From: Charina bottae
Taxonomy: Eukaryota > Chordata > Lepidosauria > Squamata > Charinaidae
Assembly (NCBI GenBank): GCA_023362775.1
Contig: JALMGJ010000016.1
Span: 434,001 to 498,000, forward strand
DNA length: 64,000 nucleotides
Reading direction: 5' to 3'
The notes below the pieces were generated by a model, which ran no database searches, was not told the origin of the DNA, and saw nothing but the letters and a program-made list of their open reading frames with translations. A program made the translations under genes and the position numbers. Shown here piece by piece: positions 4,212 through 59,910 of the stretch; the first letter of the stretch is position 1, and each line of letters starts with the position of its first letter.

Positions 4212-4430
4212 CTTAAAAGAATTAAATCAGATTTTTTTCTTTTCTGTTTGGAATTTGGGTTGTATAAATAGAAAAATTCTTTTCTTTTTATTTCTATATG
4301 CATAGTATAATAGTATGGTTGGGTATAAATTAAAAGACTTAAACAAGAATTTTTTCTTTTTATCTGGAATTTGGGATGCACAGATAGAAGAAATTTTTCT
4401 CTTTACTTACATATATATAGTTTTGGAAAA
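4201..4430 (+). repeat. direct duplication, about 117-bp unit, in the L1-like 3' region
   Basis: The block starting 'gttggtataactta' at about 4202 recurs as 'gttgggtataaatta' about 117 bp later, with matching 'ctggaatttggg' and 'cagatag/aaatag' segments. The copies are diverged. Confidence 0.6.
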
Positions 4431-20040: not shown

Positions 20041-20540
20041 GGGATGCGGATGGCTCAGCAGGTTAAACAGCTGAGCTGTAGGCTGCCAATCAGAAGGTCG
20101 GCAGTTCGAACCCCGCGCGCAAGGTGAGCTCTCGTTGCTAAGTCCTAGCTCCTGTCAACCCAGCAGTTCGAAAGCCTAGCATGTAGATAAAATGGGTACC
20201 ACCTTAAGTGGGCTAATTTGCTGGCGTCCTGTTGGGAAGTCGGCTCCACCGAAGGAGAGGATCGGAAGAAGATCGAATGGCAGTGGTGACGACGGACCCG
20301 GATGTGACAGCTACAGGACGTCAGCAGCCGGCTCAAGGCATCCTGGGAATTGTAGTCCAGAGCCTAGTAGAGTCGGTTCCCTCACCCCCCTTCCTTCACG
20401 CATGGTGAATTGAATTTGGTGAATTGTATAATTTGAATTGTTTATATATATATGAATGTAAGCCGCCTAGAGTGCTCCATTAGGGAGGGGATAGGCGGGG
20501 TATAAATATCACTATAAATAAATAAATAAATAAATAAATA
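20041..20540 (+). mobile_element. tRNA-headed SINE with L2-like 3' tail
   Basis: The 5' part has RNA polymerase III promoter boxes: the A-box-like TGGCTCAGCAGGTTAA (20050-20065) and the B-box-like GGCAGTTCGAACCCC (20100-20114). The 3' part has 'taagccgcctagagtg...aggcggggtataaat' and then (AAAT)n to 20540, resembling the LINE tail at 14944-15000. A head that recruits Pol III and a LINE-matching tail make a standard SINE. No clear target duplication was found. Confidence 0.75.
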
Positions 20541-22140
20541 GTAGAGAAACAAAAGTAGAAGGGGAAGACATCTTCTAAGAAAAGAGTAAATTGAATGTGA
20601 TTAATGAGGATGGTCAAGTAAAATACATAATCTCAAGGTAAGAAATATTCAGTGGATTTACAACAAATGCATCATAGGGCAGAAGCCATTTGGCCTCAAG
20701 CCAATTGTCTGGTGACACAAGTCATTTTGTCACTTGTTCCCCAAAGCAAGATCCATTTAATTAGTTACTTTCATAAACTTGTCTCCTTTAAATATCCCAG
20801 AGAAGCGGACAGAAAGGAAAAGTCAATATGCAGTCTGCCATTTAGATGCTGTCCAGGTCCTTTGAATCAAATTTCAATTATTTGCATCAAACATTTTCTT
20901 TCTTTGGTATTTTTGGTACTCAGGAGGCAAATAGCAGACTGTAGCATCAGAACACAAGAATCTTTCTTTTTTCCTTTTCCTTTCTTTCTTTCCAAAATAC
21001 AAGGGGGAATAAACACTTACTTGATGCCATGGCGACCTTGAGAAATGTTCTATGGTCAGTCCTTTCCTAAAGGCTTATCTTGCCTTTGGCTTATATGGGA
21101 GGACACCTCCATTTTCTGTTTACTTTCTCTGCAGTTTCTGTGCTTTCAGAAAACCATATGGTTGATAACAGGTAGGAGGCAAATTGCAGACTGTAGAAGA
21201 TGGACACAAACTCCAGGGGATTCCCAGATCAGGGCAAGTGGGTCCCTAGCCATGGCTGCTGCTACCAGAGAAGAATACAGTCATGGGCTAGCCAAAATTA
21301 GCAGTGGTGGGATCAGAGTAAGCTAGCCAAAATCAGCAGTGGTGATACCAGTGCTACCCAAAGTGGGGCTACTGCTTATTCGAGGCAAGGTCTGCAGATT
21401 GGTGAGAACCCATCTATATTAGAATCATAAACATTGGAATAATTAGAGTGATCCTCTGCTCCTGGAAAACAATTATAAGGAGTGATCTCATATCGTAGAT
21501 CCACCCACCATGGCTGCCATAGGTAAAGCTGATCCAGTTTGAAAGTTCTGCCAGCAGAATGTTCAGAGATTTTGCTGGTTTTGATGGGAAGTGATGAATC
21601 GTTCTCAAGAGCTGGTAAGCTATTAATGCCTTTGTGTATGTGTAGGTGTGTGGGAAGGAGAGATGTGTAGGGCATTTGATGAAGTGGCCAAAAAAGTATA
21701 TGTCATCTTCTGCTTTTGTTTCTTCTTATTGATTCACTCAGTAGCTAGCTGCTAACCAATTAAAAATATCTGGGAAAGAAGTAGCATGGTTCCAAATGAC
21801 AATATTTCAACAGTGAGCTGGAAATGCAGAAACTCAGAGTTCACCACTGACTTTTCCCGTGCACCACAGATTTGTAAACAAATGTTTCAGTGTGTTCTTT
21901 AAGAATGTAAGGGACAAAGTTCTAATAGTATATGCAGTCACTTTCATAATATGCTAACATGTACCAGCCAGTTTGTATTTGACAAGGCCAGAAAAATTTT
22001 CTTCTTCTTTTCTGTCACTGTTTCCTTTTGTAGGAACAGGAAGCAAAAGAGCCACCCTCCTTTTTTTAAAAAAAATGTTGTGCAAGTTATTAAGCAGAAT
22101 TAGAATCATAGAGTGAAAATCTTTTTTCCCTGACATTATA
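20541..22140. other. no gene seen
   Basis: Mixed unique sequence with two partly similar blocks ('aggcaaatagcagactgta' at about 20926 and 'aggcaaattgcagactgta' at about 21177). These may be a diverged short local duplication. No domain-bearing frame. Confidence 0.5.
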
Positions 22141-24132: not shown

Positions 24133-24679
24133 GAATGACTTATAGAAATAATGTGATGTTTTGGTTTAATATAGAGTAAGAGATTGATTATGGAAATTGT
24201 TGTATATCATTGCTGTTAAAAGTTGGAAGCCACATGGTTTCGTAATTTAAAAAAAAATCTTGTGGTTTCCACACTTTTTTAGGGGGTTTTTTTTTGTAGT
24301 TTTTTGGTTTTTTTGTAGTTTTTATTCTTCTCTTGAAACCTAATAAAATTTACTACAAAAAAAGAGAATTATACCACCATCTATAAATGCTCAGTTCTTA
24401 CTGTTGCCTTGCATAGGTTTTCAAAGAAATATTCCCTCCACATTTTTGACATTTGGTAAAGTCAAATGTTGAATATCTTTTAAAGAAATCCAATTGTACA
24501 GTAATTTCCTATTGATTCCTATTGATTTCATCAAGGTGTATGTTACAATGATCTGATTAGCAATGACAAGCATTTTTGAACATATGACACCGTCTTATGA
24601 GACAAGTGGAATTTGAAGCCTGGTGTTAGCTATATTCAGGCAATACCAATATTGCAATATAAATACTCTTGCTAAGTCT

Positions 24680-26959
24680 TGTTGTTCAGTCGTTTAGTCA
24701 TGTCCGACTCTTCGTGACCTCATGGACCATACCATGCCAGGCCTTCCTGTCCTCCACTGTCTCCCGGAGTTTACTCAAATTCATGTTCATTACATCGGTG
24801 ATTCTATCTAACCATCTCATCCTCTGCCATCCCCTTCTCCTTTTGTCTTCAGTCTTTCCCAGCATCAGGGTCTTTTCCAGTGAGTCCTCTCTTCGCATTA
24901 GGTGGCCAAAGTATTTGAGCTTCAGCTTCAGTATCTGTCCTTCCAATGAGCAGTCAGGGTTGATTTCCTTTAGGATTGACTGGTTTGACCTCCTTGCAGT
25001 CCAAGGGACTCTTAAGAGTGTTCTCCAGCACCACAGCTCAAAAGCATCAATTCTTCGGCGCTCAGCCTTCCTTATGGTCCAACTCTCACAGCCATACATT
25101 ACTACTGGAAAAACCATAGCTTTCACTATACGGACCTTTGTCGGCAAGGTGATGTCTCTGCTTTTTAATATGCTGTCTAGGTTTGCCATAGCTTTTCTCC
25201 CAAGGAGCAAGCGTCTTTTAATTTCATGGCTGCAGTCACCGTCTGCGGTGATCTTGGAGCCCAAGAAAATAAAATCTGTCACTGCTTCCATTTCTTCCCC
25301 TTCTATTTGCCAGGAAGTGATGGGACCAGATGCCATGATCTGAGTTTTTTTAATGTTGAGTTTCAAGCCAGCTTTTGCACTCTCCTCTTTCACCCTCATC
25401 AAGAGGCTCTTTAGTTCCTCTTCACTTTCTGCCATTAGGGTGGTATCATCTGCATATCTGAGGTTGTTGATATTTCTCCCGGCAATCTTAACTCCGGCTT
25501 GTGATTCATCCAGCCCGGCATTTCTCATGATGTCCTCTGCATATAAATTAAATAAGCAGGGTGATAATATACAGCCTTGTCGTACTCCTTTCCCAATTTT
25601 GAACCAATCAGTTGTTCCATGACCGGTTCTAACTGTTGCTTCTTGACCCGCATACAGGTTTCTCAGGAGACAGGTAAGGTGGTCTGGTACTCCCATCTCT
25701 TTAAGACTTTGCCACAGTTTGTTGTGATCCACACAATCAAAGGCTTTAGCGTAGTCAATGAAGCAGAAGTAGATGTTTTTCTGGAACTCTCTTGCTTTTT
25801 CCATGATCTATCGAATGTTGGCAATCTGATCTCTAGTTCCTCTGCCTCTTCGAAACCCAGCTTGCACTTCTGGTAGTTCTCGGTTCACATGCTGCTGAAG
25901 CCTAGCTTGTAGGATTTTGAGCATAACCTTGCTAGCATGTGAAATGAGTGCAATTGTACGGTAGTTTGAACATTCTTTGGCATTGCCCTTCTTTGGAATT
26001 GGAATGTAAACTGACCTTTTCCAATCCTGTGGCCACTGTTGAGTTTTCCAAATTTGTTGGCATATTGAGTGCAGCACTTTAGCAGCAGCATCTTTTAGGA
26101 TTTTAAATAGCTCAGCTGGGATACTGTCTTCTCTGCTAGCTTTCTTGTTAGTAATGCTTCCTAAGGCCCACTTGACTTCACTCTCTAGGATGTCCGGCTC
26201 AAGGTCAGTGACCACACCATCGTATTTATCAGGGATATTAAGATCTTTCTTGTATAGTTCTTCTGTGTATTCTTGCCACCTCTTCTTAATCTCTTCTGCT
26301 TCTATTAGGTCCCTGCCTTTTTTGTCCTTTATCATGCCCATCTTTGCAAAAACGTTCCCTTGATATCTCCGATTTTCTTGAAGAGATCTCTAGTCTTCCC
26401 CATTCTATTGTTTTCCTCGATTTCTTTGCATTGTTCATTTAAGAAGGCCTTCTTATCTCTCCTTGCTATTCTCTGGAAATCTGCATTCAGTTGGTTATAT
26501 CTTTCCCTTTCTCCCTTGCCTTTTGCTTCCCTTCTTTCCTCAGCTATTTGTAAAGCTTCATCAGTCAGCCACTTTGCTTTCTTGCATTTCTTTTTCTTTG
26601 GGATGGTTTTAGTTGCTGCCTCCTGTACAATGTTACGAACCTCCATCCATAGTTCTTCAGGCACTCTGTCTACCAGATCTAATCCTTTAAATCTATTCCT
26701 CACCTCCACTGTATATTCATAAGGGATATGATGTAGGTCATACCTGATTGGTGTAGTGGTTTACGTTCTTCAATTTAAGCCTAAATTTTGCGATAAGAAG
26801 CTCATGATCTGAGCCACAGTCAGCTCCAGGTCTTGTTTTTGCTGATTGTATAGAGCTTCTCCATCTTTGGCTGCAAAGTATATAATCAATCTGATTTCGG
26901 TATTGACCACCTGGTGATGTCCATGTGTAGAGTCATCTCTTGTGTTGTTGGAAAAGAGT
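24680..26959 (-). mobile_element. BovB (RTE) LINE, 5' truncated, lineage A
   Basis: The 3' end lies at 24680 and the element is truncated at 26959, inside the endonuclease domain. GCTAAGTCT is found at both edges (24671-24679 and 26960-26968), a 9-bp target duplication. Its terminus reads GAGTCGGACATGACTAAACG on the element strand. The protein is nearer to ruminant-type BovB (SLEKTLMLG, DRKAWHGMVHEVTKS) than the other two copies in the window. Confidence 0.9.
24698..26935 (-). pseudogene. BovB endonuclease/reverse transcriptase, truncated and broken
   Basis: The C-terminal part of the endonuclease (DYIL, RPGADCGSDHELLIAKF, decayed) is followed by the reverse transcriptase: NYRTIALISHASKV, VQAGFRRGRGTRDQIANIR, FCFIDYAKAFDCVDH, GVRQGCILSPCLFNLYAED and NNLRYADDTTLMAES. 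There are two visible breaks. A TAG at 25807-25805 replaces the Trp codon between IANIR and IMEKAREF. A one-base deletion near 26345 (GTF to AKMG) shifts the frame. Otherwise it is well preserved. Confidence 0.9.
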
Positions 26960-26969
26960 GCTAAGTCTG

Positions 26970-30989: not shown

Positions 30990-31050
30990 TTAAAAACAAT
31001 CATTGGCGATCACTCGTAGCCGAGTAAGGTTGTCTTCCAAAGGTAAAATT

Positions 31051-34000
31051 TTAACGGTGGATCCGTAAGTGGCTATAAAGGCCAATTCTGGATCCGCACA
31101 ACCTCCCACAATGAGGGCATAGGTTTCCGGGTGGGAGACGGTCATGATGAGGGTTTGCCTGACGTGCCTTCCTTTTAGCTCTTTTCTCCTTTTCGCCCTG
31201 TACTCGTGCTTCTTCAAAGTCCATAGCGCCATTAATAAAGGATGACTTCCAATTGAAACGCTCATGAGTTAGGGCTTCCCAGTTCTCAATGCTGATATTA
31301 CATTTTTTTAAATTAGCTTTGAGAGTATCTTTGAATCTCTTTTGCTGTCCACCAATATTCCGTTTTCCATTCTTAAGTTGGGAGTAAAGTAGCTGCTTTG
31401 GAAGACGATGGTCAGGCATTCGAACAACATGACCGGTCCAGCGAAGTTGATGTTGGATGATCATTGTTTCAATGCTGGTGGTTTTCGCTTCTTCTAATAC
31501 GCTAACATTAGTCCGCCTATCTTCCCAAGTAATTTGCAGAATTTTTCGGAGGCAGCGTTGATGGAATCTTTCAAGAAGTTGGAGGTGGCGTTTGTAGAGG
31601 GTCCATGTTTCACAGGCGTACAGAAGGGTTGGTAGTACAATGGCTTTGTAAACAAGCATTTTGGTCTCCCTGCGAATGTCCCGATCCTCAAACACTCTAC
31701 GCTTCATTCGGGAGAAAGCTACACTCGCAGAGCTCAGGCGATGCTGAATTTCAGCGTCGATGTCGGCTTTTGTAGATAGATGGCTGCCGAGATAAGAAAA
31801 GTGATCGACATTTTCTAGTGACACACCTTTAAGCTGGATTGATGGCGCTGCGGAGGGATTGGTTCGAACTTGCTGGTAAAGCACTTTGGTTTTTTTAATG
31901 TTAATCGAGAGGCCGAGTTTTTCATATGCTTCTGCAAAGATGTTTAGGATAGTTCGAAGATCTTCCTCGGAGTGTGCACAGACTACGTTATCATCAGCAT
32001 ATTGAAGTTCTATAACAGAAGTTGCAATTACCTTATTTTTTGCTTTCAGCCTACTAAGATTAAAAAGCTTTCCATCTGTTCGATATATAATTTCTACACC
32101 AGTAGGAAGTTTCTCTTCAACAAGGTGCATAATCATAGCGATGAAGATAGCGAATAAGGTTGGAGCAATAACACATCCCTGTTTAACGCCGGATTCCACT
32201 TTAAATGGATCGCTTTGAGAGCCATTGTTATTCAGGATTGTTGCCATCATGTCGTCATGGAGTAACCGCAAGATGTTCACAAATTTATCAGGGCATCCGA
32301 TTTTCAGAAGGATGGTCCAGAGAGCAGTACGATTTACAGTATCAAAGGCTTTAGTCAGATCAATAAATGCCATGTATAGAGGGCGGTTTTGCTCCTTGCA
32401 TTTTTCTTGAAGCTGTCGTGCAGTGAAGATCATATCCACTGTTCCCCTGGAAGGGCGGAAGCCATTTTGCGTTTCAGGGAGGATGTCTTCTGATACAGAT
32501 AGGAGACGGTTTGCAATGATCTTTGCCAGGATTTTGCCTGCTGTGGCTAGAAGGGAGATGCCTCGATAGTTTCCACAGTCTGTTCTATCACCCTTTTTAA
32601 AGAGAGTGATAATTATGGCATCCCTAAAGTCTGCTGGAATCTCCTCCCTCATCCAGATTTTTTCAATGAGCTTATGAAGTTGTTGTGTAAGTTCAGGCCC
32701 GCCTTCTTTAAAGACTTCAGCAGGAATCCCATCAGGTCCACTAGCTTTGTTATTTTTCATTTGTTTAGTGGCTTTACTGACTTCCTCCAAACTAGGGGGT
32801 ACTGCAAGCTCATTTCTTATTTGTTTTTGTGGGATTTGCAAGAAGACTTCATCAGCCACAGTAGAGTGACGATTAAGGAGATTGTAGTAATGCTCTTTCC
32901 AGCGCAGTGCAATAGACTCTTTGTCCTTTAGAAGTTTAGCACCATCTACTGAGCGTAAGGGATTTGTACCATGGTTTGTTGGTCCATAGATGGCCTTTAT
33001 GGCATTAAAAAAGCCCCGTGCATCATGAGCATCTGCAAAATGTTGGGTTTCTTGGGCTTTTTTTATCCACCATATGTTCTTAAGTTCTCTAGTTCTTCTT
33101 TGAACTTCTGCTTTTGCACTGGCGTAGATTTTTTTCTTAACGGCACAGTTAATATCTTTTTGCCATATCTGGAAGGCTTTCCTTTTCTTGTCAATAATAT
33201 GTTCAATCTCACTATCGTTCTCATCAAACCAGTCCTGATGTCTCTTAGTCTGGTATCCGATAGTTTGTTCACAGGCTGAAATAATAGAAGTCTTCAATTT
33301 ACTCCAGTGTTCCTCAACATTTTCAGGAAGTTCCATAGGCAGATGTTTCTTGAGAGTTGATTGAAAGCAAGCTCGTTTGATAGGATCTTGAAGGGCCAGT
33401 GTATTCATTTTACGCCTTGGTTTTCTTCCTTGGAGCCTACGATGAGGGACAATCTTTATGGCCATCGTGGATCGAATTAATCGATGGTCTGTCCAGCAGT
33501 CATCGGCGCTCGTCATGGCTCTGGTGAGAAGTACATCACGGCGATCTCTAGCACGGACAATTACATAATCTAAAAGATGCCAGTGCTTCGACCGTGGGTG
33601 CTTCCATGATGTTTTAAATTTATTTTTCTGGCGAAAGAGTGTGTTAGTAATGACAAGGTTATGCTCTGCACATTTAGTCAGAAGTAAGATTCCATTCGTG
33701 TTGCTGTTGTCAACTCCTTCTTTCCCAATGATCCCTGGCCACAAATCAAAATCACGCCCAACTCTTGCATTGAAATCGCCCAGGAGGATAATTTTATCCT
33801 CCTTTGGTATCTCTGATAAGATGGTGTCCAGCTGGGTATAAAATTTTTCCTTGATATCCTCATCTGCATCTAGTGTTGGTGCGTAAGCACTTAGGATAGT
33901 TGCCTGTTGGTTTTTGGCGAGTTTTATTCGCAGAGTTGAGAGTCGTTCGTTAATCCCAGTGGGAACTTCTGACAAGAGCTTCACAAGGTCGTTTTTGATA

Positions 34001-34236
34001 GCAAAGCCTACCCCATGTATTCGTCGTTCTTGTTCAGGCAGTCCTTTCCAAAAGAAGGTATAACCTCCTTTTTCTTCCTTCAACTGTCCTTCTCCTGCTC
34101 TTCGAGTTTCTTGGAGTGCTGCTATATCAATATTAAAACGTCTCAGCTCCCTTGCAATAATGGCAGTCCTACGTTCAGGTCGTTCACTATCCATATTGTC
34201 TTGCAGTGTCCGTATATTCCATGTTCCAAAATTCAT
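31051..34236 (-). CDS. LINE endonuclease/reverse transcriptase polyprotein, intact, 1,061 codons
   Basis: The ATG at 34236 starts MNFGTWNIRTL. An apurinic-type endonuclease comes first: WN6-7, E43 (ALQETR), SAYAPT at about 116-121, LLGDFNARVG at 151-160 (D154, N156) and WTDHR at 248-252 (D250, H251). The reverse transcriptase spans about 490-800: KASGPDG, NYRGISLLA, NGFRPSRGT, FIDLTKAFDTV, GVKQGCVIAPTLF and catalytic YADD 746-749. The last 22 residues form a C2H2-like motif, CPHC...HLRIH, possibly nucleic-acid binding. No stop or shift was seen, so it could be active. It is not a host gene, although such proteins are often mislabelled 'craniofacial development protein 2-like' in databases. 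Confidence 0.95.
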   Translation of the reverse strand: MNFGTWNIRTLQDNMDSERPERRTAIIARELRRFNIDIAALQETRRAGEGQLKEEKGGYTFFWKGLPEQERRIHGVGFAIKNDLVKLLSEVPTGINERLSTLRIKLAKNQQATILSAYAPTLDADEDIKEKFYTQLDTILSEIPKEDKIILLGDFNARVGRDFDLWPGIIGKEGVDNSNTNGILLLTKCAEHNLVITNTLFRQKNKFKTSWKHPRSKHWHLLDYVIVRARDRRDVLLTRAMTSADDCWTDHRLIRSTMAIKIVPHRRLQGRKPRRKMNTLALQDPIKRACFQSTLKKHLPMELPENVEEHWSKLKTSIISACEQTIGYQTKRHQDWFDENDSEIEHIIDKKRKAFQIWQKDINCAVKKKIYASAKAEVQRRTRELKNIWWIKKAQETQHFADAHDARGFFNAIKAIYGPTNHGTNPLRSVDGAKLLKDKESIALRWKEHYYNLLNRHSTVADEVFLQIPQKQIRNELAVPPSLEEVSKATKQMKNNKASGPDGIPAEVFKEGGPELTQQLHKLIEKIWMREEIPADFRDAIIITLFKKGDRTDCGNYRGISLLATAGKILAKIIANRLLSVSEDILPETQNGFRPSRGTVDMIFTARQLQEKCKEQNRPLYMAFIDLTKAFDTVNRTALWTILLKIGCPDKFVNILRLLHDDMMATILNNNGSQSDPFKVESGVKQGCVIAPTLFAIFIAMIMHLVEEKLPTGVEIIYRTDGKLFNLSRLKAKNKVIATSVIELQYADDNVVCAHSEEDLRTILNIFAEAYEKLGLSINIKKTKVLYQQVRTNPSAAPSIQLKGVSLENVDHFSYLGSHLSTKADIDAEIQHRLSSASVAFSRMKRRVFEDRDIRRETKMLVYKAIVLPTLLYACETWTLYKRHLQLLERFHQRCLRKILQITWEDRRTNVSVLEEAKTTSIETMIIQHQLRWTGHVVRMPDHRLPKQLLYSQLKNGKRNIGGQQKRFKDTLKANLKKCNISIENWEALTHERFNWKSSFINGAMDFEEARVQGEKEKRAKRKARQANPHHDRLPPGNLCPHCGRLCGSRIGLYSHLRIHR

Positions 34237-34770: not shown

Positions 34771-34920
34771 GGATCGTTCTTTGTCTGGTTCCTCCCCCTG
34801 GACCTTACCGCCATGGGTGACCCTGCCAGGAGTACATGACTCCCGACGGCTTCGCTCACAGGGTTCATTGGGAACACACAAGCCCACTCACCACAACAAG
34901 GTGACGATCCAGCGAGTGAG
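34771..34920 (-). ncRNA. HDV-like self-cleaving ribozyme at the LINE 5' end (predicted)
   Basis: On the element strand the first nucleotide is 34920. P1 pairs 34920-34914 (CTCACTC) with 34889-34883 (GAGTGGG), 7 bp including one G-U. P2 pairs 34910-34904 (GGATCGT) with 34777-34771 (ACGATCC). P3 pairs ACC (34902-34900) with GGT (34892-34890), closing a 7-nt loop, TTGTTGT. P4 pairs GTTCC (34875-34871) with GGAAC (34792-34788). The joint to P2 holds CAGACAAAGA with the candidate catalytic C at 34783. Cleavage would occur exactly at the target-duplication boundary. HDV-like ribozymes are established at 5' ends of R2 and RTE-type LINEs. Confidence 0.75.
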
Positions 34921-34931
34921 TTAAAAACAAT

Positions 34932-41837: not shown

Positions 41838-41984
41838 TGGATTTAGAGGTATCAATTTTGTAATCTAAAAACAGACTGGGAAATAGATCTCATTAACCCT
41901 ATATCAGAGACTGATGTGTCCTGCCTTTGTGGATAAGCACCCAGTGAACATTTTTTGTTGTTTATTCGTTCAGTCGCTTCCGAC

Positions 41985-44749
41985 TCTTCGTGGACCAGCC
42001 CACGCCAGAGCTTCCTGTCGGCCATCACCATCCCCAGCTCCCCCATGGTTGAGTCCGTCACCTCCAGAATATCATCCATCCATCTTGCCCTTGGTCGGCC
42101 GCTCTCCCTTTTGCCTTCCACTTTCCCTAGCATCAGCTTCTTCTCCAGGGTATCCTGCCTTCTCATTATGTGGCCAAAGTACTTCAGTTTTGCCTTTAAT
42201 ATCATTCCCTCAAGTGAGCAGTCTGGCTTTATTTCCTGGAGTATGGACTGGTTTGATCTTCTTGCAGTCCAAGGCACTCTCAGAATTTTCCTCCAACACC
42301 ACAGTTCAAAAGCACCTATCTTCCTTCGCTCAGCCTTCCTTATGGTCCAGCTCTCACAGCCATAGGTTACTATGGGGAATACCATTGCTTTAACTATGCG
42401 GGCCTTTGTTGTCAGTGTGATGTCTCTGCTCTTAACTATTTTATCAAGATTTGCCATTGCTCTCCTCCCAAGAAGTAGACGTCTTCTGATTTCCTGGCTG
42501 CAGTCAGCATCTGCAGTAATCTTTGCGCCTAGAAATACAAAGTCTGTCATTGCCTCCACTTTTTCTCCCTCTATTTGCCAGTTATCAATCAAACTGGTTG
42601 CCATAATCTTGGTTTTTTTGAGGTTTAACTGCAACCCAGCTTTTGCACTTTCTTCTTTCACCTTCGTCATAAGGCTCCTCAACTCCTCCTCGCTTTCAGC
42701 CATCAAAGTGGTATCATCTGCATATCTGAGATTGTTAATGTTTCTTCCAGCCATTTTAACTCCAGCCTTGGATTCCTCAAGCCCAGCACATTGCATTATG
42801 TGTTCTGCGTACAGGTTGAATAGGTAGGGTGAGAGTATACAGCCCTGCCGTACTCCTTTCCCAATCTTAAACCAGTCCGTTGTTCCGTGCTCTGTTCTTA
42901 CCGTTGCTACTTGGTCGTTATACAGATTCCTCAGGAGGCAGACAAGATGACTTGGTATCCCCATACCACCAAGAACTTGCCACAATTTGTTATGATCCAC
43001 ACAGTCAAAGGCTTTAGAATAGTCAATAAAACAAAAATAGATGTTTTTCTGAAACTCCCTGGCTTTCTCCATTATCCAGCGGATATTGGCAATTTGGTCT
43101 CTAGTTCCTCTGCCTTTTCTAAACCCAGCTTGTACATCTGGCAATTCTCGCTCCATTAATTGCTGGAGTCTACCTTGCAAGATCTTGAGCATTACCTTAC
43201 TGGCATGTGAAATAAGTGCCACTGTTCGATAGTTTGAACATTCTTTAGTGCTTCCCTTTTTTGGTATGGGGATATAAGTTGATTTTTTCCAATCTGATGG
43301 CCATTCTTGTGTTTTCCAAATTTGCTGGCATATGGCATGCATCACCTTGACAGCATCATCTTGGAAGATTTTAAACAGTTCAGCTGGGATACCATCGTCT
43401 CCTGCTGCCTTGTTATTAGCAATGCTTCTTAAGGCCCATTCAACCTCACTCTTCAGGATGTCTGGCTCTAACTCACTGACCACACCATCAAAGCTATCTC
43501 CAATATTATTATCCTTCCTATACAGATCTTCCATATATTCTTGCCACCTTTACTTGATCTCTTCTGCTTCTGTTAGGTCCTTTCCATCTTTGTTTTTGAT
43601 CATACCCATTTTTCCCTGGAATTTACCTCCGATGTTTCTAATTTTCTGGAAGAGATTTCTTGTCCTTCCTATTCTATTGTCTTCTTCCACTTCCGCAAAT
43701 TGCTTGTTTAAAAATAATTCCTTATCTCTTCTGGCTAACCTCTGGAATTTTGCATTTAATTGGGCATATCTCTCCCTATCACTGTTGCCTTTTGCTTTCC
43801 TTCTTTCTTGGGCTACTTCCAGTGTCTCAGCAGACAGCCATCTTGCCTTCTTGGTTTTCTTTTTCTTTGGGACGTTTTTTGTTGCCGCCTCCTGAACGTT
43901 GTTGCGAACTTCTGTCCGTAGTTCTTCCCGGACCCTATCTACTAAATCTAGTCCCTTAAATCTATTCTTCACCTCCACTGCATATTCCTTAGGAATATTA
44001 GTGAACTCATATCTTACTGATGTGTGGGTCTTCCCTATTCTCTTTAGTCTGATTCTAAATTTTGCAATAAGAAGTTCGTGATCTGAACTACAGTCAGCTC
44101 CAGGTCTTGTTTTTACCGACTGTATAGTTGTCTGCCACCTTTGGCTGCAAAGGATGTAGTCAATCTGATTTCGGTGTCGACCATCTGGTGAAGTCCATGC
44201 ATAAAGTCGTCTTTTAGGTTGTTGGAAGAGAGTGTTTGTTATGCACAGTGAGTTGTCTTGGCAAAATTCTATCAGCCTATGTCCTGCTTCATTTTGTTCT
44301 CCCAGACCATGCTTGCCTGTAATTCCAGGTGTCGTCTGACTACCCACCTTAGCATTCCAGTCTCCTGTAATGAAAATAACATCTCTTTTTGGTGTATTAT
44401 CCAGTAGGTGCTGCAGATCCTCATAGAAATGATCTACTTCTGCTTCTTCAGCATCTGTGGTTGGGGCGTATATTTGGATCACTGTGATGTTAAATGGCTT
44501 ACCCTGAATTCGAATTGAGATCATTCTATCGTTTTTTGGATTGTATCCAAGCACTGCTTTAGCCACTTTATTATTAATTATGAAGGCTACTCCATTTCTT
44601 CTGTGGTCCTCTTGTCCACAGTAGTAGATCTGGTGGTCATCTGATGTGAAGTGGCCCATTCCAGTCCATTTCAGTTCACTGACACCTAAAATGTCTATAT
44701 TTAATCTTGACATCTCACCAATAACCACATCCAATTTGCTCTGGCTCAT
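41985..44749 (-). pseudogene. BovB endonuclease/reverse transcriptase, one internal stop and a tail deletion
   Basis: The frame is continuous through the endonuclease (NIDILGVSELKW, YAPTTDAEEAEVDHFY, FITGDWNAKVG, NQIDYILC, CSSDHELL) and the reverse transcriptase (AAGDDGIPAELFK, NYRTVALISHASK, FCFIDYSKAFDCVDH, NNLRYADDTTLMAES). One TAA at 43549-43547 replaces a Lys codon (EEIK-stop-RWQEY), an AAA-to-TAA type change. Near the C-terminus about 8 bp are missing compared with the 59.5-kb copy ('cttcgtg...gacc'), which shifts the last residues. The ATG at 44749 follows the TWNVRS motif, so the natural start may lie slightly upstream. Confidence 0.92.
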
Positions 44750-44829
44750 AGATCTTACATTCCAGGTTCCTATGGTGTGTTGATCTTTAGAACATCAGAT
44801 TCGTCGTTCACCACCAGCACCGTCGGCCG

Positions 44830-45024
44830 CTAGCCGTCCTTTCGGCTTTGAGCTAGCTGCGTCATCACATCTGGGTCTAGTTGAACGTATCCTCTGTTCC
44901 TCCCCAGTAGCATTTTGACCATCTTCCGACCTGGGAGTCCCATCTTCCGATGGTATACCGACATATCTCTGGTTTTACTGATCCATTTAGTTTTCACGGC
45001 AAGAATACTGGGGTGGGTTGCCAT
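44830..45024 (-). CDS. short upstream frame of BovB (64 codons)
   Basis: A MATHPSILAVKTKWISK-type frame in the 5' region of the full-length BovB. It ends about 80 bp before the main ORF. It may be a small ORF1 or only leader sequence. I see no domain. Confidence 0.4.
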   Translation of the reverse strand: MATHPSILAVKTKWISKTRDMSVYHRKMGLPGRKMVKMLLGRNRGYVQLDPDVMTQLAQSRKDG

Positions 45025-45037
45025 TACCTTCCCCAGG

Positions 45038-45168
45038 GATCGTATTTAGTCTGACCTCTCTGCCACGACCTTTCCATCTTGGGTGTCCCTTCACGGTTTA
45101 GCTCATGGTTTCATTGAGGTGCTCAAGCTCTAGCACCACGACAAGGTAACGATCTACTTTGCTGGAGC
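45038..45168 (-). ncRNA. HDV-like self-cleaving ribozyme at the BovB 5' end (predicted)
   Basis: The first nucleotide is 45168. P1 pairs 45168-45161 (GCTCCAGC) with 45134-45127 (GCTAGAGC), with one C-A mismatch at 45164/45131. P2 pairs 45154-45149 (GATCGT) with 45043-45038 (ACGATC). P3 pairs ACC (45147-45145) with GGT (45137-45135) around a 7-nt loop, TTGTCGT. P4 pairs ACCTC (45120-45116) with GAGGT (45058-45054). CAGACTAAAT links P4 to P2, with the candidate catalytic C at 45049 followed by UAA as in HDV. The layout matches the fold at 34920 strand for strand. Confidence 0.72.
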
Positions 45169-45289
45169 CAGTTAACATTATTTCAGTAAATATATGAAAT
45201 ATGCAGTAAGATATATAATCAAAAGTTCTACATCAAACTAGAGAGAGATATTGTGATATTCAGCTGCTATGAAGCTGAATTAATATTTG

Positions 45290-58989: not shown

Positions 58990-59485
58990 AGCAAGATATG
59001 GTTCTTTATTATTATAGAATATTAGGGGCAAGGAATCATCTGGACATCCAAAGAAAGGGGTTGTTGTGGGGAAAACCAGAGGTAGAAGAGTTATGTATGC
59101 TGCCTTGAGTTATATAAAAATAAAAGGTGGGACATAAATCTAATCTAATAATCTGATGACATAACTTCTATATTTGAATCAGACATCTTGACATACTGAA
59201 ACAAATTACATAAGGGCATCATTTGTGGAATGATGTTATGCTGTATGTGCTGCTGTTTGAATGTTGTTGCTTGAAATGGATACCTCTGGCTAGAACAGGA
59301 TGGTGGCAAGGAAGGTGGTGAATTTAGTTTAATTCAGGATTGTAAAAATTCCTGGATATGAAAAATATGATTGCCTTGTTTTTGTTATTATTACATACTG
59401 TCCCTGGTTATGGATTTGCGGGTTCAGATAAAATACAAAATAGGTGCACAAGCCTGAATTCTGACCATCCCCTGGCTTAAAACAT
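58990..59485. other. no gene seen; L2-like tail scrap
   Basis: 59095-59155 ('gctgccttgagtt...ggtgggacataaatctaatctaataa') resembles an L2/CR1-type LINE 3' tail. The rest is unique. Confidence 0.45.
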
Positions 59486-59490
59486 GGTTT

Positions 59491-59910
59491 GTTGTTTATT
59501 CGTTCAGTCGCTTCCGACTCTTTGTGACTTCATGGACCAACCCACGCCAGAGCTTCCTGTTGGCCGTCACCATCCCCAGCTCCCCCATGGTTGAGTCTGT
59601 CACCTCCAGAATATCATCCATCCATCTTGCCCTTGGTTGGCCCCTCTTCCTTTTGCCTTCCACTTTCCCTAGCATCAGCTTCTTCTCCAGGGTATCCTGC
59701 CTTCTCATTATGTGGCCAAAGTACTTCAGTTTTGCCTTTAATATCATTCCCTCAAGTGAGCAGTCTGGCTTTATTTCCTGGAGTATGGACTGGTTTGATC
59801 TTATTGCAGTCCAAGGCACTCTCAGAATTTTCCTCCAACACCACAGTTCAAAAGCATCTATCTTCCTTCGCTCAACCTTCCTTATGGTCCAGCTCTCACA
59901 GCCATAGGTT
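59491..59910 (-). mobile_element. BovB (RTE) LINE 3' fragment, lineage B, cut by copia
   Basis: The C-terminal 107 codons (SNQSILQEIKPDCSLEG to GLVHEVTKSRKRLNE) and 3' end are about 95% like the 41.95-kb copy by eye. The match stops at 59910 in 'cagccataggtt', exactly where the copia LTR begins. In the full-length copy the sequence continues 'actatgggg', so the remainder should lie beyond the copia element. Confidence 0.9.

Follow-up and report, generated by a model that had tools for sequence, protein, structure and literature searches.

A candidate HDV-like ribozyme at the 5′ termini of BovB and a second RTE-like LINE in the genome of Charina bottae

The first stretch of the LINE BovB in Charina bottae, from +1 to about +131, very probably is an HDV-like self-cleaving ribozyme that forms the 5′ end of the element, the cleavage itself being predicted. 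The window analysed here (64,000 nucleotides of contig JALMGJ010000016.1, positions 434,001 to 498,000 of the forward strand) holds one such copy, together with a second, RTE-like LINE that has a comparable fold. A preliminary description of this DNA had proposed that BovB carries its own 5′ processing ribozyme, and the proposal is strengthened by the fact that the copies read begin with the fold and by the recurrence of its P1 arms at thousands of places in the one genome searched. The helices pair and covary between the two element families, the 5′ ends are exact and the flanks before them are unrelated. If this reading is true, a 5′ end made by a ribozyme would account for full-length copies with exact starts and no internal promoter, and it would offer an easy test of which BovB 5′ ends work as well as a mark for complete copies in other genomes.

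The fold and the start of the element

The topology of HDV-like ribozymes, for which passages of PMC3774820 and PMC4908430 were followed, is found in the BovB stretch: a P1 of about 7 bp, with its 3′ arm coming right after P3/L3, a P2 that pairs across it to give the pseudoknot, and a P4. P2, P3, P4 and the joint between P4 and P2 had already been recognized and are present on the minus strand as described (Table 1). The loop L3 of the window copy contains the U and the G expected of HDV-like loops, and a P1.1 made of a single G-C pair is possible between the first C of J1/4 and the third base of L3 (G45142), in both families and without variation. In both family majorities the putative catalytic C in J4/2 and the G of L3 are present in position and identity. 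P4 is longer than 5 bp, with three additional inner helices that pair in both families. One base separates P2 from P3, J1/4 is 7 nt long and, in J4/2, the putative catalytic C is followed by 5 nt; in HDV, both J1/4 and the part of J4/2 that follows the C are shorter. The CPEB3 ribozyme of mammals has a seven-base L3 with conserved U and G, a P1.1 of a single pair and a C-N-A-A joint; BovB likewise has a seven-base L3, a possible single-pair P1.1 and C-N-A-A, and differs in that CPEB3 lies in a host intron and not at the end of an element.

The boundaries of the two elements were set from their target-site duplications (TSDs), independently of the fold. BovB begins at C45167 of the minus strand and the second LINE at C34920, and each of these bases is also the first base of P1 in its own fold. 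The two copies of the BovB TSD (AATGTTAACTGG/AATGTTCACTGG) match at 11 of 12 positions, which is equalled in 3 of 1000 shuffles when one mismatch is permitted; with zero mismatches permitted only 6 bases are left, 359 of 1000 shuffles equal them, and the figure is uninformative. For the TSD of the second LINE, 3 of 1000 shuffles are equally good. The start of BovB is placed at C45167 because the TSD ends flush before this base, and the CTC found there in 35 of 38 BovB copies confirms it. G45168 is a copy of the target site and not part of BovB; therefore P1 is CTCCAGC/GCTAGAG, seven positions counted from 45167, with one C-A mismatch. The earlier P1 was right about the single mismatch and wrong about its start at 45168, since element and P1 both begin one base later in the reading direction.

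The small ORF that follows the fold was located in 37 copies and has 64 codons in 30 of them; a protein search with it returned no match. It overlaps the endonuclease-reverse transcriptase (EN-RT) frame, which can begin with MDQYNQRYV in 28 of the 36 copies where this place was located. The frame encodes an APE endonuclease and an RT and, among the best 120 of 5208 protein matches, those of Anolis are 77–89% and those of Bos 62–74% identical. We take the element to be BovB, a name that appears in none of these best 120 of 5208 matches. Four BovB-type RT proteins (P0005, P0006, P0012 and P0016) are assigned to Staphylococcus aureus, Mycoplasmopsis arginini and Babesia ovata, and are probably host DNA in those assemblies. 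Two more BovB pieces lie in the window, at 24679-26960 (76% identical) and 59481-59910 (95%), both without the 5′ end.

Table 1. Features of the two elements, in window coordinates
Feature	Position	Strand	Sequence and remarks
BovB 5′ TSD	45168..45179	(-)	AATGTTAACTGG; flush before C45167
BovB P1, 5′ arm	45161..45167	(-)	CTCCAGC; C45167 is +1, first base of the predicted cleavage product; TSD flush
BovB P2, 5′ arm	45149..45154	(-)	GATCGT
BovB P3 and L3	45135..45147	(-)	ACC/GGT around L3 TTGTCGT
BovB P1, 3′ arm	45128..45134	(-)	GCTAGAG; GCTGGAG in 34/38 BovB copies
BovB J1/4	45121..45127	(-)	CTTGAGC; same in second family, hence unvaried
BovB P4 domain	45054..45120	(-)	ACCTC/GAGGT, CCATG/CGTGG, CCGT/ATGG (majority ACGG), GGG/CCC
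BovB J4/2	45044..45053	(-)	CAGACTAAAT; putative catalytic C 45049; second family CAGACAAAGA
BovB P2, 3′ arm	45038..45043	(-)	ACGATC
Small ORF	44833..45024	(-)	64 codons, MATHPSILA...; ATG at +144, 12 nt after the fold
BovB EN-RT frame	41953..44794	(-)	Broken in the window copy
BovB EN part	43550-44794	(-)	
BovB RT part	from 43534	(-)	Open frame passes the element end to 41852
BovB 3′ TSD	41941..41952	(-)	AATGTTCACTGG; BovB copy is 45167-41953
Second LINE 5′ TSD	34921..34931	(-)	ATTGTTTTTAA; exact, 11 bp; 3′ copy at 30990-31000
Second LINE fold	34772..34920	(-)	RTE-like; P1 CTCACTC/GAGTGGG, P2 GATCGT/ACGATC, P3 ACC/GGT, P4 GTTCC/GGAAC
Second LINE putative catalytic C	34783	(-)	
Second LINE EN+RT frame	31051..34236	(-)	Uninterrupted, 1061 aa

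Genome copies and covariation between two families

The genome searched was the window's own (1.80 Gb, 278 contigs). The core GATCGTNACCTTGTNGTGGT has 6,973 exact matches in it, and the reversed control none; both perfect BovB P1 arms stand around the core at 4,407 places and both perfect second-family arms at 1,416, again with none in the controls. From 100 of the 6,973 core matches that were listed, 48 copies were taken in order on contig 1 and, with the two copies in the window, they form a set of 50 (38 BovB and 12 of the second family), within which L157 and L158 have a common upstream flank and are not independent.

The family's own CTC is at +1 in 44 of the 50 copies (35/38 for BovB and 9/12 for the second family). 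Averaged over pairs of the 38 BovB copies, identity is 0.25 at –1, 0.85 at +1 and 0.9–1.0 thereafter, and in the second family it is 0.23 at –1, 0.56 at +1, 0.68 at +2 and then 0.83–1.0; the DNA upstream of +1 is thus unrelated among copies. Identity among BovB copies also climbs to 0.38 and 0.51 at –12 and –11, which would fit an endonuclease with a dinucleotide preference for its nick, one TSD length before the element. An exact TSD of at least 8 bases was found at the expected 3′ end in 19 of the 30 fetched BovB copies with sufficient downstream DNA; 15 of these 19 are flush at +1 and the other four lie within 3 bases (at –3, –2, –1 and +1), one of them in a simple repeat. The second family has an exact TSD in 2 of 10 copies, both flush. 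Such a TSD is missing from 11 BovB and 8 second-family copies, and in some of these, such as L172 and L152, the match lies at a shorter distance. In L140 and L143, of which one is BovB and one belongs to the second family, the first ~14–16 nt are partially repeated directly upstream of +1, a 5′ duplication reminiscent of template jumping at the RNA's 5′ terminus.

P1 pairs at all seven positions in 30 of the 36 BovB copies in which the 3′ arm of P2 (P2′) was located and in 8 of 11 second-family copies, and the P1 of the BovB majority is a perfect CTCCAGC/GCTGGAG. The C-A mismatch, for which the earlier description had asked whether it is private to the window copy, nearly is: it is found in two of the 38 BovB copies, namely the window copy and L172. 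The putative ribozyme of the window copy is probably weakened by it.

The nearest protein to that of the second LINE is from Anolis carolinensis (80% identical). The C-terminus of the second LINE's own protein resembles a C2H2 finger by eye, with no Pfam match reported. The identity of this protein to P0032, a BovB-type relative that takes the place of the BovB protein because the frame in the window is broken, is 30%. When 24 blocks of BovB are compared as DNA with the second LINE, the first one, of 131 nt, scores highest (72, the next being 44, and local scores of 30 shuffles not exceeding 30), and the alignment ends with P2′; by BLAST the likeness of the two 5′ regions is weak (E 0.003 and 0.13). 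This likeness would fit either an RNA structure kept amid protein divergence or an exchanged 5′ module.

The covariation comparison covers two families, represented by the majorities of 36 BovB and 10 second-family copies, and 33 pairs in P1, P2, P3 and four P4 helices. Pairs were counted by script on hand-placed helices because MAFFT misaligned P1 of the second family, and four rows were left out (L125, L136 and L148, in which P2′ is absent at the expected place, and L144, which has a deletion). Twenty-two pairs are identical, three have a one-sided change that keeps the pair, eight are double compensatory changes (three in P1, four in the outer P4 helix and one in the inner P4) and none is broken; random letters at the changed sites keep every pair in 10 of 200,000 trials. 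The covariation that had been noticed between the two sequences of the window therefore holds for the family majorities. The two P1 helices do pair in the same places, as had been said, but they are not completely different in sequence, given that three of their seven pairs are identical. P2, P3, L3 and P1.1 show no variation that would probe pairing, the GGG/CCC of P4 is invariant, and hence none of them has support from covariation. Between families L3 is TTGTCGT or TTGTTGT, J1/2 measures 6 or 4 nt and J4/2 is CAGACTAAAT or CAGACAAAGA; within families some P4 changes at CpG sites are present and were excluded from the count.

A third family, with all six letters of P2 changed, was sought and rejected: 173 places were obtained against 71 with the reversed control, and 10 of the 173 were inspected. 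Six of these belong to an unrelated repeat, three to BovB fragments that are truncated, rearranged or altered in P2, and one is unrelated. The repeat (L173-L177 and L180), which carries AGGGCCTACCTTGTGGTGGT and variants of it, has the P3-L3 word by chance and seems to belong to a coding repeat rather than to a ribozyme.

Specificity of the fold and alternative explanations

A strict descriptor (7-bp P1, 6-bp P2, 3-bp P3, L3 of 7–8 nt, CNAA joint and 5-bp P4) has a single match on the two strands of the 64-kb window, at 34920, and one match in total in 60 dinucleotide shuffles of the window, a mean of 0.017 per window. Allowing one P1 mismatch adds 34924 (another register) and 45167 to the window match at 34920. 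The descriptor becomes uninformative once P4 and J4/2 are left free, because 7 starts in the window compare with a shuffle mean of 3.8. Among the 48 genome copies the strict descriptor falls exactly at +1 in 33 and misses 15, with no match elsewhere in 441,920 strand-bases. Chance pairing within a repeat could invoke the fact that the descriptor was written after the folds had been seen and that the core alone does occur in bacterial DNA. The negative control consisted of such chance cores, at least 120 bacterial matches from GTDB contigs and four viral ones from IMG/VR: a P1 of 7 bp is present at 1 of these 124 loci, compared with 38 of 47 element copies, and the full descriptor matches once in their 1,896,760 strand-bases. 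Together with the shuffles and the compensatory changes between families, these counts make chance scarcely credible.

In terms of nested folding energy the two window stretches are ordinary, being equalled by 22 and 13 of 200 shuffles, and the minimum free energy structure of the window BovB stretch is without P1. Nested folding of the majorities predicts P1 and P4; in the BovB majority P1 has a probability of 0.50–0.54 and P2 of 0.30–0.44, a split that is expected of two helices that jointly form a pseudoknot, and the probability is at most 0.02 for P3 and for P2 of the second family. The HDV families of Rfam (release 15) gave no match at E 10 in the short stretches nor at the gathering threshold in the window, and the RF00094 covariance model matched nowhere in the genome, a negative of little weight because its control matched nowhere either; by score, the BovB fold is not a member of the Rfam HDV families. 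The core pattern occurs at four places in IMG/VR, none with ACGATC nearby; searches of IMG/VR with the EN and second-LINE proteins and with an RT alignment confirmed no relative, and searches of phage and plasmid DNA found no relatives. The Bos BovB-type RT matched 12 plasmid records, all below 60% identity, and no phages. A match to this RT (25.7% identity, E 7e-37) lies at 20274-21725 of NZ_CP104070.1, a 39.8-kb Alicyclobacillus fastidiosus 'plasmid', where the annotation table has no gene.

The observations on the 5′ end can also be read in other ways. A conserved 5′ RNA of HDV shape that no longer cuts, kept for the binding of an element protein or for the start of translation, would fit the same covariation, and the small ORF does begin 12 nt after the fold; this reading is nevertheless unlikely, since it leaves unexplained why P1 starts at the exact end of the element in both families and why the C-N-A-A joint and L3 are kept. 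Exact 5′ ends, taken by themselves, also fit an internal promoter with a fixed start at +1 and an incidental RNA fold; such promoters are encoded by some non-LTR elements, as a passage of PMC3774820 states, and an A-box-like word occurs in 38/38 BovB copies. This would not explain the compensatory changes, and the pol III pair of A and B boxes is absent from the first 200 nt, where a B box (up to 2 mismatches) is found in 0/38 BovB copies and in 1/12 copies of the second family, the latter without an A box. An internal promoter is thus very improbable.

Another class of ribozyme, twister or hammerhead, is more improbable still. Both have been connected with the same superfamily, and twister with the same place: in passages of the respective texts, a review citing work 'in preparation' mentions that elements of the RTE superfamily have truncated twister ribozymes at their 5′ end (PMC7761336), and hammerhead-like RNAs overlap DNA annotated as RTE-BovB in a schistosome (PMC5993326). 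Against this, no Rfam twister or hammerhead model matches the window or the short stretches, although truncated twisters may escape the models, and the helices are arranged as in HDV, P1 being at +1.

Proposed mechanism and comparison with known systems

If the 5′ stretch is an HDV-like ribozyme, a host promoter upstream would drive a longer RNA that includes the BovB copy, and the nascent RNA would fold into a double pseudoknot, with P1 formed by the first seven bases of the element, P2 and P3 stacked beside it and P4 stacked on P1. The C at 45049 in J4/2 would then assist cleavage immediately before C45167. The product would be an RNA that has a 5′-OH and starts exactly at the element, and this RNA would be translated and then serve as template where new target DNA has been nicked. 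As such an RNA begins exactly at the element, new full-length copies would start at +1 whatever lay upstream; as it would be uncapped, its translation would have to be cap-free or to follow capping by another route.

A wider picture can be offered tentatively, as a possibility with the odds rather against it. BovB may have no promoter of its own and live on host read-through, with the ribozyme alone setting the 5′ end and the small ORF, 12 nt further on, taking over from it; such host-promoter independence might let BovB work in any animal that it reaches and would then be among the causes of its horizontal spread. The putative ribozyme might also move between elements as an exchangeable 5′ module, because it is the part best conserved in DNA between elements whose proteins are ~30% identical.

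Widespread horizontal transfer of BovB between animals is described in passages of PMC4844689 and PMC6036668, and the former gives AviRTE an ORF of ~3.2 kb and a 5′ UTR of ~800 bp. The words 'promoter', 'UTR' and 'ribozyme' are absent from the main text of PMC6036668, where the start of BovB RNA is not treated. Among the papers listed by the literature searches, no report of an HDV-like ribozyme in BovB was found; an earlier mention in Ruminski et al. (2011) is possible. In three of the texts that contain words for both subjects (PMC6275457, PMC5993326 and PMC6850104), the relevant passages hold no HDV-like ribozyme in BovB; BovB appears in a reference only in PMC6850104 and elsewhere in the text in PMC6275457. 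The combination of 'Bov-B' and ribozyme led to one spider genome, in excerpts of which the words stand in unrelated places.

The kind of ribozyme proposed here is already known, because HDV-like ribozymes have been published in non-LTR retrotransposons including the RTE clade (Ruminski et al., 2011, as reported in passages of PMC3774820). The BovB fold resembles them in its position at the 5′ end of the element, in topology, in its predicted cleavage at the 5′ junction, which is described for theirs, and in its RTE-clade host, and differs from them in the 7-nt J1/4, in the single base between P2 and P3 and in the large and ordered P4. The R2 ribozyme, in the account found in passages of PMC3774820, shares with BovB the P1 arm placed right after P3/L3 and compensatory changes in P1, there between fruit-fly species, and it has the catalytic C and the role in 5′ processing that are predicted for BovB. 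However, R2 resides in rDNA and, in the species tested, is mostly cut within the 28S rRNA upstream of the element, whereas P1 of BovB lies wholly inside the element and its flanks are unrelated; furthermore, J1/4 is 0–2 nt in R2 and 7 nt in BovB. Ribozymes of the drz-Agam-1 type (RF01787), present in a mite genome and said to process non-LTR retrotransposons in Anopheles (a passage of PMC6275457), are likewise an HDV-like class tied to non-LTR elements, but the BovB and second-LINE stretches do not match RF01787. Pr77 of the trypanosomatid L1Tc/ingi elements is also a retrotransposon HDV-like ribozyme, described as one that frees RNAs from cellular co-transcripts (a passage of PMC4035085); it belongs to another element clade and is likened here by description. 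To these systems the present analysis adds the presence, the exact position and the covariation of such a fold in two LINEs of one genome, BovB and a distant RTE-like element.
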